The notes under the pieces were generated by a model. The model saw only the letters and a list, made by a program, of their open reading frames with translations, made no database searches and had not been told where the DNA came from. A program made the position numbers and the translations under genes. Shown in pieces: positions 13,073-18,753 of a DNA stretch of 44,337 nucleotides; positions within the stretch are counted from its first letter, which is position 1; the number at the start of each line of letters is the position of its first letter. Origin of the DNA: Candidatus Magasanikiibacteriota bacterium (GTDB taxonomy: Bacteria > Patescibacteriota > Patescibacteriia > Magasanikbacterales > GWA2-37-8); NCBI GenBank assembly GCA_016189025.1, contig JACPGS010000022.1:1-44337 (forward strand), in the 5' to 3' direction.

Positions 13073-13504
13073 ATGGAACAAACCAAACAATTTGAACTGG
13101 CAAGCAGAGAATGGGAGCTGACCCAGGGAGTGATGGATAAATACGATGCCCTGTCGATAAAAATCAAGGCCTGGGCTGTAACGGTCTGGGTGGCTGGGCT
13201 GGGCTGGAGTTTTAGCCGGGGCGACCAAAAAGTGCTCGGGGCGGTGCTGTTTCTGCTGGTTGCCCTGTGGGTGTTAGACGCGGTGAATAAAGATTACCGC
13301 AATCAGTATAAAAAACGCCGCGATGAAATTAGCGCTGGCCTGCAACATTACTGGCAATCCGCCTCCTGGCCGGCCGAGTTTGTCTGCCCGCAACTGCCGG
13401 GCAAAGGACAATCCGACTTCCGGGCAATGATCACGCGGCCTCACATTGCTATTTTGTACCTGGCCTTAATGCTGGTAACAACGCTAGCGTTACTCATCAA
13501 ATAG
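13073..13504 (+). CDS. three-TM membrane protein
   Basis: The 143-residue protein has a polar N-terminal helix (MEQTKQFELASREWELTQG), two hydrophobic segments about 34-50 and 58-77, a cytoplasmic-looking charged helix, and a C-terminal hydrophobic segment from about residue 124 to 142. I recognise no family. It begins 14 bases after the tRNA with no terminator or promoter between, so it is probably cotranscribed with tRNA-Met and released by processing. It ends just before a large palindromic repeat. Confidence 0.6.
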   Translation: MEQTKQFELASREWELTQGVMDKYDALSIKIKAWAVTVWVAGLGWSFSRGDQKVLGAVLFLLVALWVLDAVNKDYRNQYKKRRDEISAGLQHYWQSASWPAEFVCPQLPGKGQSDFRAMITRPHIAILYLALMLVTTLALLIK

Positions 13505-13517
13505 TTTACACCTAAAT

Positions 13518-13680
13518 TGAGCTCATTCCAAAACCTGCTTTCGCAAGCGAGCCGTTTGATTTTCGCAGCGAGGCGAAGCGGCGGAGGCTGAAACGTATTG
13601 GAAATACGTTGAAGCCGAGCCGCTAGCCACAGCCGAAAATCAAACGGGGAAGCCGAAATGAGGTTTTGAAATGAGCTCAT
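13518..13680. repeat. long imperfect palindrome (MITE/REP-like)
   Basis: Arms of about 75-80 bases pair across a centre at AACGTATT/AATACGTT (13592-13610). The outer ends are TGAGCTCATT and AATGAGCTCA, and each arm shares a CGTTTGATTTTCG block. Mismatches are clustered between the arms. It carries no ORF. It looks like a non-autonomous palindromic element and can act as a transcription barrier between the tRNA unit and the DUF4258 gene. Confidence 0.7.
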
Positions 13681-13715: not shown

Positions 13716-13967
13716 ATGATTATTTTTACCAGACATGCGGAAGAAAAATTTGCTCTTTTACAAAAGCACAAAATCCGTATCACTCGGGAACAAGTTATTT
13801 CTATTGTTAAACAACCGAAGCGCCTGGACTTATCTCGCTTTCCACTTTTTATCGCTCAAGGGCCACTTGACCAAAATCGGGTAATTCGTGTAGTATATAA
13901 ACGTGAAAACGATACAACCAAAATTATCACTTTTTATCCAGGTAGAAAAAAACAGTATGAAATCTAA
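13716..13967 (+). CDS. DUF4258-type small protein (toxin-like)
   Basis: The 83-residue protein reads FTRHAEEKFALLQKHKIRIT, then IVKQPKRLD, and ends with IRVVYKRENDTTKIITFYPG. This is the H-A...R, then V-Y, then KIITFYP layout of DUF4258 proteins, which belong to the RelE/MqsR-like fold group and often act as ribonuclease toxins. It overlaps the next gene by 11 bases, a normal arrangement for a toxin-antitoxin pair. Composition is AT-richer than the nearby metabolic genes. Activity as a toxin is inferred from family and context. Confidence 0.75.
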   Translation: MIIFTRHAEEKFALLQKHKIRITREQVISIVKQPKRLDLSRFPLFIAQGPLDQNRVIRVVYKRENDTTKIITFYPGRKKQYEI

Positions 13968-14193
13968 ACTTAAATCAATTTTCCATCTCTCCTATGACCC
14001 GGAGGCAGATGTGTTAAGCTGGGAGATGAGCGAAAAACCGATTGATTACGCAACGGAAATGGGAAATATGATAGTGCATTTCAGCCGTACTCACCAACCA
14101 GTGCTGGTAGAAATTTTGCAAGCTAAAGATTTTCTCCGACAAACGAAACAAATGGTCCGTCCGCAACATCACCGTCTGGCACAAATGGCATAA
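13957..14193 (+). CDS. DUF2283-type protein, likely antitoxin partner
   Basis: The start is placed at ATG 13957 (MKSKLKSIFHLSYDPEADVL); an upstream in-frame ATG at 13903 would lie deep inside the previous gene. The YDPEADVLSWEMSEKPIDYA segment and later VLVEILQAKDFL fit DUF2283, small proteins that pair with DUF4258 or similar toxins. Length (78 residues) is slightly long for the family, with a basic His-rich tail. Translational coupling by the 11-base overlap supports one functional module. Confidence 0.75.
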   Translation: MKSKLKSIFHLSYDPEADVLSWEMSEKPIDYATEMGNMIVHFSRTHQPVLVEILQAKDFLRQTKQMVRPQHHRLAQMA

Positions 14194-14217
14194 TTCCATG
14201 AACTGTGGATAAACTAC

Positions 14218-14246
14218 TTGACGGCCAAAAACAAAAGGCGTAAGCT
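14218..14246 (+). promoter_or_regulatory. promoter for leader peptide and attenuator
   Basis: TTGACG (14218-14223) and TAAGCT (14241-14246) are 17 bases apart. The -35 is good and the -10 keeps the key T, A and final T. The expected start falls at about 14253-14254, on the leader ATG. Confidence 0.5.
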
Positions 14247-14253
14247 GTTTTTT

Positions 14254-14334
14254 ATGAACTCTTATCAATCCGCTACCGAATTAATGATGGTGGCCATGCC
14301 TTCGCGGCGAAGGTCTGGTTGGAGTTTGCGCTAA
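14254..14334 (+). CDS. putative methionine-rich leader peptide (26 residues)
   Basis: ATG 14254 opens a 26-codon frame ending at TAA 14332. Its middle reads TELMMVAMPSRRR, so three Met codons fall within five codons, directly before the first arm of a set of alternative hairpins. The ATG sits at the expected transcript start, giving a leaderless mRNA, in keeping with other promoters here. The frame ends before the terminator of the attenuator. The downstream operon encodes a MetE-type methyltransferase, which makes a Met-sensing leader peptide plausible. No independent evidence of translation can be seen. Confidence 0.5.
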   Translation: MNSYQSATELMMVAMPSRRRSGWSLR

Positions 14335-14383
14335 GCGTAAATTTGCCTCCGCCTTCGCCCCGCGCGAAGGCGGTTTTGTTTTT
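14299..14383 (+). terminator. attenuator: alternative hairpins ending in a rho-independent terminator
   Basis: Four segments can pair in exclusive ways: 1 CCTTCGC (14299-14305), 2 GCGAAGG (14307-14313), 3 CCGCCTTCGC (14349-14358), 4 GCGAAGGCGG (14364-14373). Pairing 3-4 gives a ten-pair terminator followed by TTTTGTTTTT; pairing 2-3 would prevent it; pairing 1-2 would free 3. Segment 1 starts right after the last leader Met codon. This is the classical leader-peptide attenuator arrangement. The terminator is certain, the switching inferred. Confidence 0.6.
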
Positions 14384-14393
14384 ATCACTTTCT

Positions 14394-15167
14394 ATGAAAA
14401 CCATCATCATCGGCGCCGGCCGGGGACGACGGCTGGAGCACCTTACCGCCCAGGAGCCAAAACCGTTTACCGTTATCCAGGGCAAACGCATTTTGGATTG
14501 GGTATTGGCAGCCCACCGCGCCAATGGCATCACCGACCTCACCTATATCGGCGGCTATCTGCTGGACGTGGTGAAACAAAATTACCCTGCCCTGCAGTTT
14601 CGCCATAATACCGAATGGGCCAGCAACAATATCCTGCAATCGCTCTGGTATGCGGCGGACGACATGGATAACGGCTTTATTTCCACCTATGCCGACATTC
14701 TGTACCAGCCGGGAATTGTCGCTAAATTGCTCGCTAGCCCGGCCGACATCACTATCGCCGTAGACACGGACTGGCGCACCCGTTACCGGCACCGCTCGCT
14801 CCACCCCACCACCGACGCGGAAAAAGTTACCGTCGCGGGCGGCCGGATTGCCCGGCTGCATCGCGCCATTCCCGATAATGAGGCGGCGGGCGAATTTATT
14901 GGTGTGGCTAAATTTTCGCCCCGCGGCGCTCAAATTTTTAAAACCTATCACCAGGCCCTGCCGCCAAATTTCCAATTTGAAGGCAAGATCCCCCTGGCGC
15001 GCGCTTACTTAATTCACTTTCTTAATTACCTAGTGGAGCAAGGAGTGGAAATAAAATTTGTGACTACCCCCGGCTACTATATTGAGGTGGATACTCTGGA
15101 AGACTACGCTTATGCCGAAACATATTGGCAGCTCCCTAACCCCCAACTCATCGCTTCTACCGTATGA
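14394..15167 (+). CDS. sugar/choline-phosphate nucleotidyltransferase-like protein
   Basis: The start is ATG 14394 (MKTIIIGAGRGRRLEHLTAQ); the longer frame would run into the attenuator. The 257-residue product has the nucleotide-binding GAGRGRRL loop and EPKPF motif of nucleotidyltransferases. TEWASNNILQSLWYAADD, STYADILY and AVDTDWRTRYRHR resemble phosphocholine cytidylyltransferase (LicC) and phosphonate cytidylyltransferases. It would activate a phosphorylated small molecule as a CDP or UDP derivative, probably for surface decoration. It overlaps the next gene as ATGA. The substrate cannot be fixed from sequence. Confidence 0.75.
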   Translation: MKTIIIGAGRGRRLEHLTAQEPKPFTVIQGKRILDWVLAAHRANGITDLTYIGGYLLDVVKQNYPALQFRHNTEWASNNILQSLWYAADDMDNGFISTYADILYQPGIVAKLLASPADITIAVDTDWRTRYRHRSLHPTTDAEKVTVAGGRIARLHRAIPDNEAAGEFIGVAKFSPRGAQIFKTYHQALPPNFQFEGKIPLARAYLIHFLNYLVEQGVEIKFVTTPGYYIEVDTLEDYAYAETYWQLPNPQLIASTV

Positions 15168-16264: not shown

Positions 16265-16291
16265 GCCCTCGCGCCGCCGCGAGGGCTTTTT
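16265..16291 (+). terminator. rho-independent terminator after MetE-like gene
   Basis: GCCCTCGCG (16265-16273) pairs with CGCGAGGGC (16278-16286) across a four-base loop and is followed by TTTTTG. Confidence 0.85.
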
Positions 16292-16324
16292 GTTCTTTAC
16301 CAAATTAATATCGTTGGCCAATTC

Positions 16325-18272: not shown

Positions 18273-18491
18273 ATGTATAAAATCATTACTAAACCCGTTG
18301 TTGTTAATAAGTACCAGCTTACTGCCGAGGTAAAATTGCTGCGCTCTTCTCTCATCGGTTTCCTAGGAGAGGATGAGGAGGGCGAGTATCGGCCAGAATT
18401 TGTGGCAAAAATACTCCATCGCAGCCAACAGTCCCCCACCCGGGTCTTTAGAGGAGCGCGCGACTTTCTTAGCCGGTTGCGCTCCGCCTGA
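18273..18491 (+). CDS. antitoxin-like protein paired with RelE/ParE-type toxin
   Basis: The 72-residue protein starts MYKIITKPVVVNKYQLTAEV and ends in a basic helix. No family is certain, but size, position and the one-base gap to a RelE/ParE-like toxin make antitoxin the likeliest role. Such antitoxins bind their toxin through the C-terminus and repress their own promoter through the N-terminus. No SD is visible. Confidence 0.55.
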   Translation: MYKIITKPVVVNKYQLTAEVKLLRSSLIGFLGEDEEGEYRPEFVAKILHRSQQSPTRVFRGARDFLSRLRSA

Positions 18492-18492
18492 T

Positions 18493-18753
18493 ATGGCACT
18501 GCTATACTATCAAGATTTTGAATCAGAAGCTCGTAATCTACCAAAGGCCGCTCAACAAAAACTTGCTCGCTGTCTGGAACTTCTCGCTAATCAGCCTTTT
18601 CATCCCCTACTACATACCAAACGTCTAGGGGGAGAACTGCTTGGCGTTTATTCTTTCCGCATTACCCGCGACTGGCGGGTATTGTTTCAATTTTTGGATC
18701 AACAAACAATCCAATTACTAGCAGTTGGCCATCGTAAGGAAATTTATCGGTAA
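18493..18753 (+). CDS. RelE/ParE-family toxin
   Basis: The start is ATG 18493 (MALLYYQDFESEARNLPKAA), one base after the antitoxin stop; the longer frame overlaps the antitoxin. The 86-residue product has KLARCLELLANQPFHPLLHTKRLGG as the helix pair and linker, then VYSFRITRDWRVLFQF and VGHRKEIYR. This is the L...G..S.R...YR...F.....I.VGHRK.IY pattern of RelE/ParE toxins. These either cleave mRNA in the ribosome or inhibit gyrase, and sequence alone does not decide which. Length is usual for the family. Confidence 0.85.
   Translation: MALLYYQDFESEARNLPKAAQQKLARCLELLANQPFHPLLHTKRLGGELLGVYSFRITRDWRVLFQFLDQQTIQLLAVGHRKEIYR

Follow-up and report, generated by a model that had tools for sequence, protein, structure and literature searches.

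The leader region of a nucleotidyltransferase/core-MetE operon in the window (the whole 44,337-nt stretch of Candidatus Magasanikiibacteriota DNA analysed here, from a genome of 1.22 Mb) probably encodes a transcription attenuator of the ribosome-mediated kind, with charged methionyl-tRNA as its signal. Attenuation of this kind is known, and what appears to be new is methionine as the sensed amino acid. The evidence from the window on its own amounts to a modest case, and it is the comparison with related genomes that makes the case strong.

Leader region and operon in the window

A putative promoter, TTGACG-17-TAAGCT (14218..14246, forward strand), is present as originally predicted, with TTGACG at 14218-14223, a 17-nt spacer and TAAGCT at 14241-14246, and 7 nt lead from there to the leader ATG at 14254. 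Its -10 element is weak; as TAAGCT fits the consensus at only three of six positions, a consensus promoter scan did not return the promoter of this leader. The ATG opens a leader peptide ORF of 26 codons (MNSYQSATELMMVAMPSRRRSGWSLR; 14254..14334, forward strand), which has counterparts in the relatives L006, L007 and L008. Its regulatory methionine codons lie in the stretch ATG ATG GTG GCC ATG (14284..14298, forward strand), at 14284, 14287 and 14296, and this stretch lines up, position for position, with the MMMTMM run of L007. The window contains 168 ORFs that open with ATG and span 15-40 codons; of these, only the leader has three or more Met within six codons.

The leader and the four segments described for it in the original prediction were all recovered at the same positions, on the forward strand. 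Segment 1, CCTTCGC (14299..14305), is specific to the window and unconserved. Segment 2, GCGAAGG (14307..14313), lies 8 nt beyond the last Met codon and, judging from the sequence and the relatives, would be the 5' arm of an anti-terminator. Segment 3, CCGCCTTCGC (14349..14358), is indicated by sequence, scan and fold to be both the 3' arm of the anti-terminator and the 5' arm of a terminator. It is separated by the loop CCCGC from segment 4, GCGAAGGCGG (14364-14373), which together with the U-tract TTTTGTTTTT (14374-14383) completes a predicted intrinsic terminator (14364..14383). The terminator, spanning 14349-14383, was picked up by two independent scans. The folding energy of the leader RNA is 4.1 sd below that of dinucleotide shuffles, and the minimum-energy fold, calculated without a ribosome, is the 2-3 anti-terminator. 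Neither a T-box nor a SAM riboswitch was found in the window, from which RF00162 is absent, and an Rfam search of positions 13960-14400 gave no match at E<=1.

Between the end of the U-tract and the ATG of the first operon gene at 14394 lie 10 nt. This gene encodes a nucleotidyltransferase (PF12804; 14394..15167, forward strand) and overlaps the gene of a core-MetE-like methyltransferase (PF01717; 15164..16240, forward strand), in which the zinc ligands H217, C219, E252 and C313 and the homocysteine-binding residues S14, E59 and D172 are invariant among 10 homologs (residue list for core-MetE: PMC7857596). The protein matches solved structures of B12-independent methionine synthases and scores far under the curated equivalog cut-offs set for the named models of methionine synthase. 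A second terminator (16265-16295), found by the terminator scan, lies ahead of a SAM-dependent methyltransferase gene (PF08241; 16459..17163, forward strand), the third gene of the conserved cluster. With its catalytic residues intact and a SAM-I riboswitch upstream of the operon in two relatives, the operon may have a role in methionine metabolism.

On its upstream side the attenuator region adjoins a DUF4258 and DUF2283 gene pair (13716-14193) with an overlap of a few bases, which is a common toxin-antitoxin-like arrangement. A long imperfect inverted repeat occupies 13530-13680, between an ORF at 13073-13504 and the DUF4258 gene, and a ParE/RelE-family toxin-like gene (PF05016) is located at 18373-18753.

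Conservation of the leader in other Patescibacteria

In a homolog scan of about 85,000 species genomes, the cluster of nucleotidyltransferase, MetE-like and methyltransferase genes was identified in three further Patescibacteria of other genera (L006, L007 and L008), of which L006 is a contig of the Magasanikbacteria genome G062, from the same order as the window genome. The cluster also occurs without the nucleotidyltransferase in another member of the Patescibacteria (L009). The nucleotidyltransferase and core-MetE domains are fused in a single ORF in L006 (4251-6035, 594 aa) and L007 (4233-6050, 605 aa) and are encoded by separate genes in the window and in L008, where the methyltransferase gene comes first behind the leader. 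MetE-like homologs were identified in Poribacteria, Chloroflexi and Planctomycetota as well; no Met leader was found upstream of these genes, and the leader is therefore, as far as seen, a feature of Patescibacteria.

The leader peptides upstream of the three operons, MEFYCKLNMMMAMMMSFKRRPD in L006, MNSITKQIFVMMMTMMPLKRRIVFGIFT in L007 and MNTIHFTVVMMMGMMREDHQTAAG in L008, contain Met runs (MMMAMMM, MMMTMM in L007, and MMMGMM) that are clearer than that of the window, and behind each leader come an anti-terminator segment and then a terminator, immediately ahead of the first gene. The window run, with three Met in six codons, is the weakest of the set and may represent a weaker, less sensitive or decaying sensor. 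In the window, L006 and L007, segment 2 is GCGAAGG and its distance from the last Met codon is exactly 8 nt, even though the 8-nt spacers differ (CCTTCGCG, TCTTTTAA and CCTTTGAA). The counterparts of the window segment 1 are TCTTTTA in L006 and CCTTTGA in L007. Methionine attenuation as first proposed agrees well with these same-operon relatives: the leader ORF, the Met run, the spacing of segment 2 and the 2-3 and 3-4 pairings are all kept, and in none of them is the leader ORF lost, do the Met codons vary freely, or is the 3-4 hairpin the only element conserved. An equivalent promoter, TTGACA/G-17-TAnnnT, precedes the leader in L008 and in two of the Met-run units described below (L053 and L055). 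As the distance from promoter to ATG is 6-11 nt in several relatives, it is plausible that the leader is leaderless, as had been suggested.

In L006 and L007 a SAM-I riboswitch (RF00162) immediately precedes the Met leader, with scores of 64.5 and 62.0 bits, respectively, both above the Rfam threshold. In these two loci (3981-4237 in L006 and 3930-4222 in L007), the riboswitch with its own terminator-like hairpin is followed by the Met-run leader and a second terminator, the leader ATG coming after the riboswitch U-run. The riboswitch appears to provide an independent tie of the operon to methionine/SAM and, as it comes first, both signals would have to allow read-through. L009 has a weaker SAM-I match (28.7 bits) and yielded no Met leader. 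Among 20 SAM riboswitches examined in the order, the tandem of riboswitch and Met leader was seen only in L006 and L007 and never beyond the MetE operon, and a search of the window genome returned no SAM riboswitch above threshold.

Alternative pairings

In a set of 20 leaders, the Met runs are kept in frame, and in all 20 the last Met codon is followed by the stop codon at a distance of 21-36 nt and by the start of the terminator at 43-63 nt. The pairing of segments 2 and 3 was better than shuffles in 20 of 20 leaders (individual p 0.003-0.10; 0.037 for the window), with a combined Fisher p of 1.5e-18 that overstates independence because the 20 leaders are partly related. Segments 2, 3 and 4 vary jointly between leader groups, as in GCGAAGG/CCTTCGC/GCGAAGG, GCGAGGG/CCCTCGC/GCGAGGG and CGGGGTTG/CAGCCCTG/AGGGCTG, with GCGAGGC/GCCTCGC as a further segment 2/3 pair, which is what selection on pairing predicts.

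The four-segment arrangement of the original prediction, in which pairing 1-2 would allow the terminator, is retained only in part. Segments 2, 3 and 4 are conserved and covariation across relatives holds for the 2-3 and 3-4 pairs; however, segment 1 is peculiar to the window and its pairing with segment 2 was no better than shuffles over the 20 leaders (combined p 0.75), and the four-segment model was dropped for these reasons. On the sequences compared, the conserved device consists of three segments (2, 3 and 4).

Methionine-run leaders before other genes

When a plain Met-run pattern (ATGATGATGNNNATGATG) was searched in 381 genomes of the class, most matches were due to chance or coding sequence, and a leader with a terminator was found at five listed sites only, namely L008 (G105) and four additional units (L053-L056). 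A conserved protein of about 70 aa (MANIDPQGDAMREIVQQIRDRG...ENCII...ITGSF), without a Pfam match, is encoded behind the leader and terminator in L053, L054 and L056 (reverse strand). In L055, around position 1274 (reverse strand), a Met-run leader (MNNQPRQSVNMMMSMMMSSCRGCF) and terminator have no clear co-directional gene behind them and possibly form a stand-alone small RNA.

A stricter pattern of promoter, ATG and Met run was found at 12 sites in 380 genomes of the phylum, and six of these sites also have the leader ORF, terminator and gene. In a control search of the same 380 genomes, in which Trp replaced Met at an equal number of specified bases, nine sites were found with a terminator at one of them, apparently a chance ORF, versus terminators at 6 of the 12 Met sites. 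At one Met-run locus (L074, 1571-2435), a leader (MNPTAHTHMAMMMMMSMPRPPR) and terminator are followed by a gene for a 245-aa protein of unknown family and then by a 6-pyruvoyl-tetrahydropterin synthase gene.

Two of the genes at the six complete sites of the stricter pattern, those of L075 and L079, are similar by eye. A weak match to the C-terminal domain of SAM hydroxide adenosyltransferase was obtained for the L079 protein, and no homologs of its gene other than itself were found in the order. Among the 21 homologs of the L075 gene (family f118), nine possess a leader with 5-6 Met in seven codons, and L094 has a weaker Met run. A terminator separates leader and gene in nearly all leader-bearing homologs, L097 having been missed by the terminator scan. 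The leader is absent from L087-L093 and L096, where the gene is at another locus, and from L104-L106; most leaderless homologs are at another locus. A SAM_HAT_C match at E<0.1 was obtained for 8 of 15 homologs, the best (5.8e-5) falling just under the curated cut-off. This protein family (L086-L104), which has SDTYG...TDF motifs and is often encoded downstream of a Met-run attenuator within one family of Patescibacteria, may be remotely SAM hydroxide adenosyltransferase-like. Overall, a strong Met-run leader with the set of segments 2, 3 and 4 precedes these putative SAM_HAT-like genes in nine genomes of one family and in G039.

Proposed mechanism and alternative explanations

The anatomy of the device, the conservation of its leader, the two alternative pairings and the gene context emerge from comparison of the related sequences, and from them we infer that transcription starts at the leader ATG, that the leader is translated and ribosomes stall on it, that transcription terminates and that the outcome depends on methionine. 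RNA polymerase would start just ahead of the leader ATG with a ribosome trailing behind. When Met-tRNA is scarce, the ribosome would wait on the Met codons and leave segment 2, which begins 8 nt downstream, free to pair with segment 3; as this pairing takes up segment 3, the 3-4 terminator would be unable to form and the operon would be transcribed. When Met-tRNA is plentiful, the ribosome would reach the stop codon and cover segment 2, and the 3-4 terminator would form and end transcription at about 14380. In L006 and L007, the upstream SAM riboswitch is expected to act in series with the Met leader.

A simpler reading of the window, in which the hairpin terminates the upstream DUF4258/DUF2283 pair, the Met codons and repeated words are coincidental and the nucleotidyltransferase promoter overlaps the terminator, draws on the upstream gene ending at 14193, on the mere three clustered Met codons of the leader and on the six and eight occurrences in all of CCTTCGC and GCGAAGG, respectively, across the window. 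It is nevertheless quite unlikely, as three other genera, whose upstream genes are entirely different, show the same order of leader, segment 2 and terminator ahead of the orthologous operon, and as the U-tract, ending 10 nt before the gene start, leaves almost no space for a second promoter. Another alternative is an attenuator gated by translation with a signal other than Met-tRNA, which could be a general slowing of ribosomes at the AUG run, initiation factors, drugs or the binding of metal by a Met-rich nascent peptide. Methionine has a single codon that doubles as the start codon, Met-rich motifs in other proteins bind copper, and a 70-aa protein of unknown function follows some of the Met-run leaders. 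A signal other than Met-tRNA is still considered unlikely in view of the serial SAM-I riboswitch, the core-MetE operon, the putative SAM_HAT-like genes behind other leaders and the classical spacing between regulatory codons and anti-terminator arm.

That the leader and terminator act on their own, as a small RNA or through a Met-rich micropeptide with its own function, and that control of downstream genes is secondary, seems highly improbable: the first gene begins shortly past the terminator in the MetE operon and in most of the SAM_HAT-like cases, and complementarity of segments 2 and 3 would be purposeless in a free-standing RNA, although L055 has no conserved co-directional gene after its terminator and attenuator-derived small RNAs such as rnTrpL do exist (cited in PMC9373788).

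With attenuation by charged Met-tRNA as the preferred explanation for the window, it is somewhat probable that Patescibacteria at large possess widespread near-leaderless attenuators of this type on methionine-recovery genes (the core-MetE operon and SAM_HAT-like genes), some of them in series with a SAM riboswitch and transcribed only if SAM and charged Met-tRNA are both scarce. Against the preferred explanation, the window has the weakest Met run and an unconserved segment 1, some Met-run leaders precede a gene with no evident role in methionine metabolism (the 70-aa protein) or no clear gene at all (L055), and the window itself is without the SAM riboswitch found in L006 and L007.

Relation to known regulatory systems

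The proposed device resembles the trp, his, leu, thr, phe and ilv attenuators in its short leader ORF with clustered codons for what would be the end-product amino acid, its mutually exclusive 2-3 and 3-4 pairings and a U-tract just before the structural gene. It differs from them in the use of Met codons, the near-leaderless leader and the lack of a conserved 1-2 protector hairpin. The protector or pause hairpin, known from the classical trp case, is treated here as typical and not essential, and the window sequence permits the pairing. As with the SAM-I (S-box) riboswitch, methionine/SAM genes would be controlled via transcription termination; however the riboswitch aptamer senses SAM, and the window is without one. 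The methionine T-box of Firmicutes likewise senses the charging state of tRNA-Met and controls termination, but it binds the tRNA directly by means of a conserved specifier and T-box sequence, whereas here a translated ORF would be the sensor. The enzyme encoded in the operon is similar to core methionine synthases (core-MetE; MesA-MesD) in having the MetE catalytic domain only, with zinc and homocysteine residues kept, and differs from them in its linkage or fusion to a nucleotidyltransferase, a setting unmentioned in PMC7857596.

In a survey of Actinobacteria, no RNA structure was reported to be conserved ahead of the methionine operons (PMC1262725). According to the available text of a broad attenuator survey, leader-peptide systems had earlier been shown only in Proteobacteria and Actinobacteria, to which a His leader in Firmicutes was added, and a Met leader is not described in that text (PMC2965389). 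No description of a methionine leader-peptide attenuator was found in the open-licence literature or Rfam, in line with the remark in the original prediction that attenuation was unfamiliar for met genes. The open-licence literature likewise yielded no report of leader-peptide attenuation in Patescibacteria/CPR and no description of tandem riboswitch/Met-leader systems or of methionine riboswitches in Patescibacteria.

If the proposed mechanism is correct, it would fill the methionine gap in the list of amino acids sensed by leader-peptide attenuation, and it would demonstrate codon-level amino acid sensing in a host-dependent, mostly uncultured phylum with very small genomes. It would also combine two sensors of one pathway, a riboswitch and a ribosome-based one, within a single leader, and the question of which methionine-recovery enzymes Patescibacteria use, including two uncharacterised families, would become testable.
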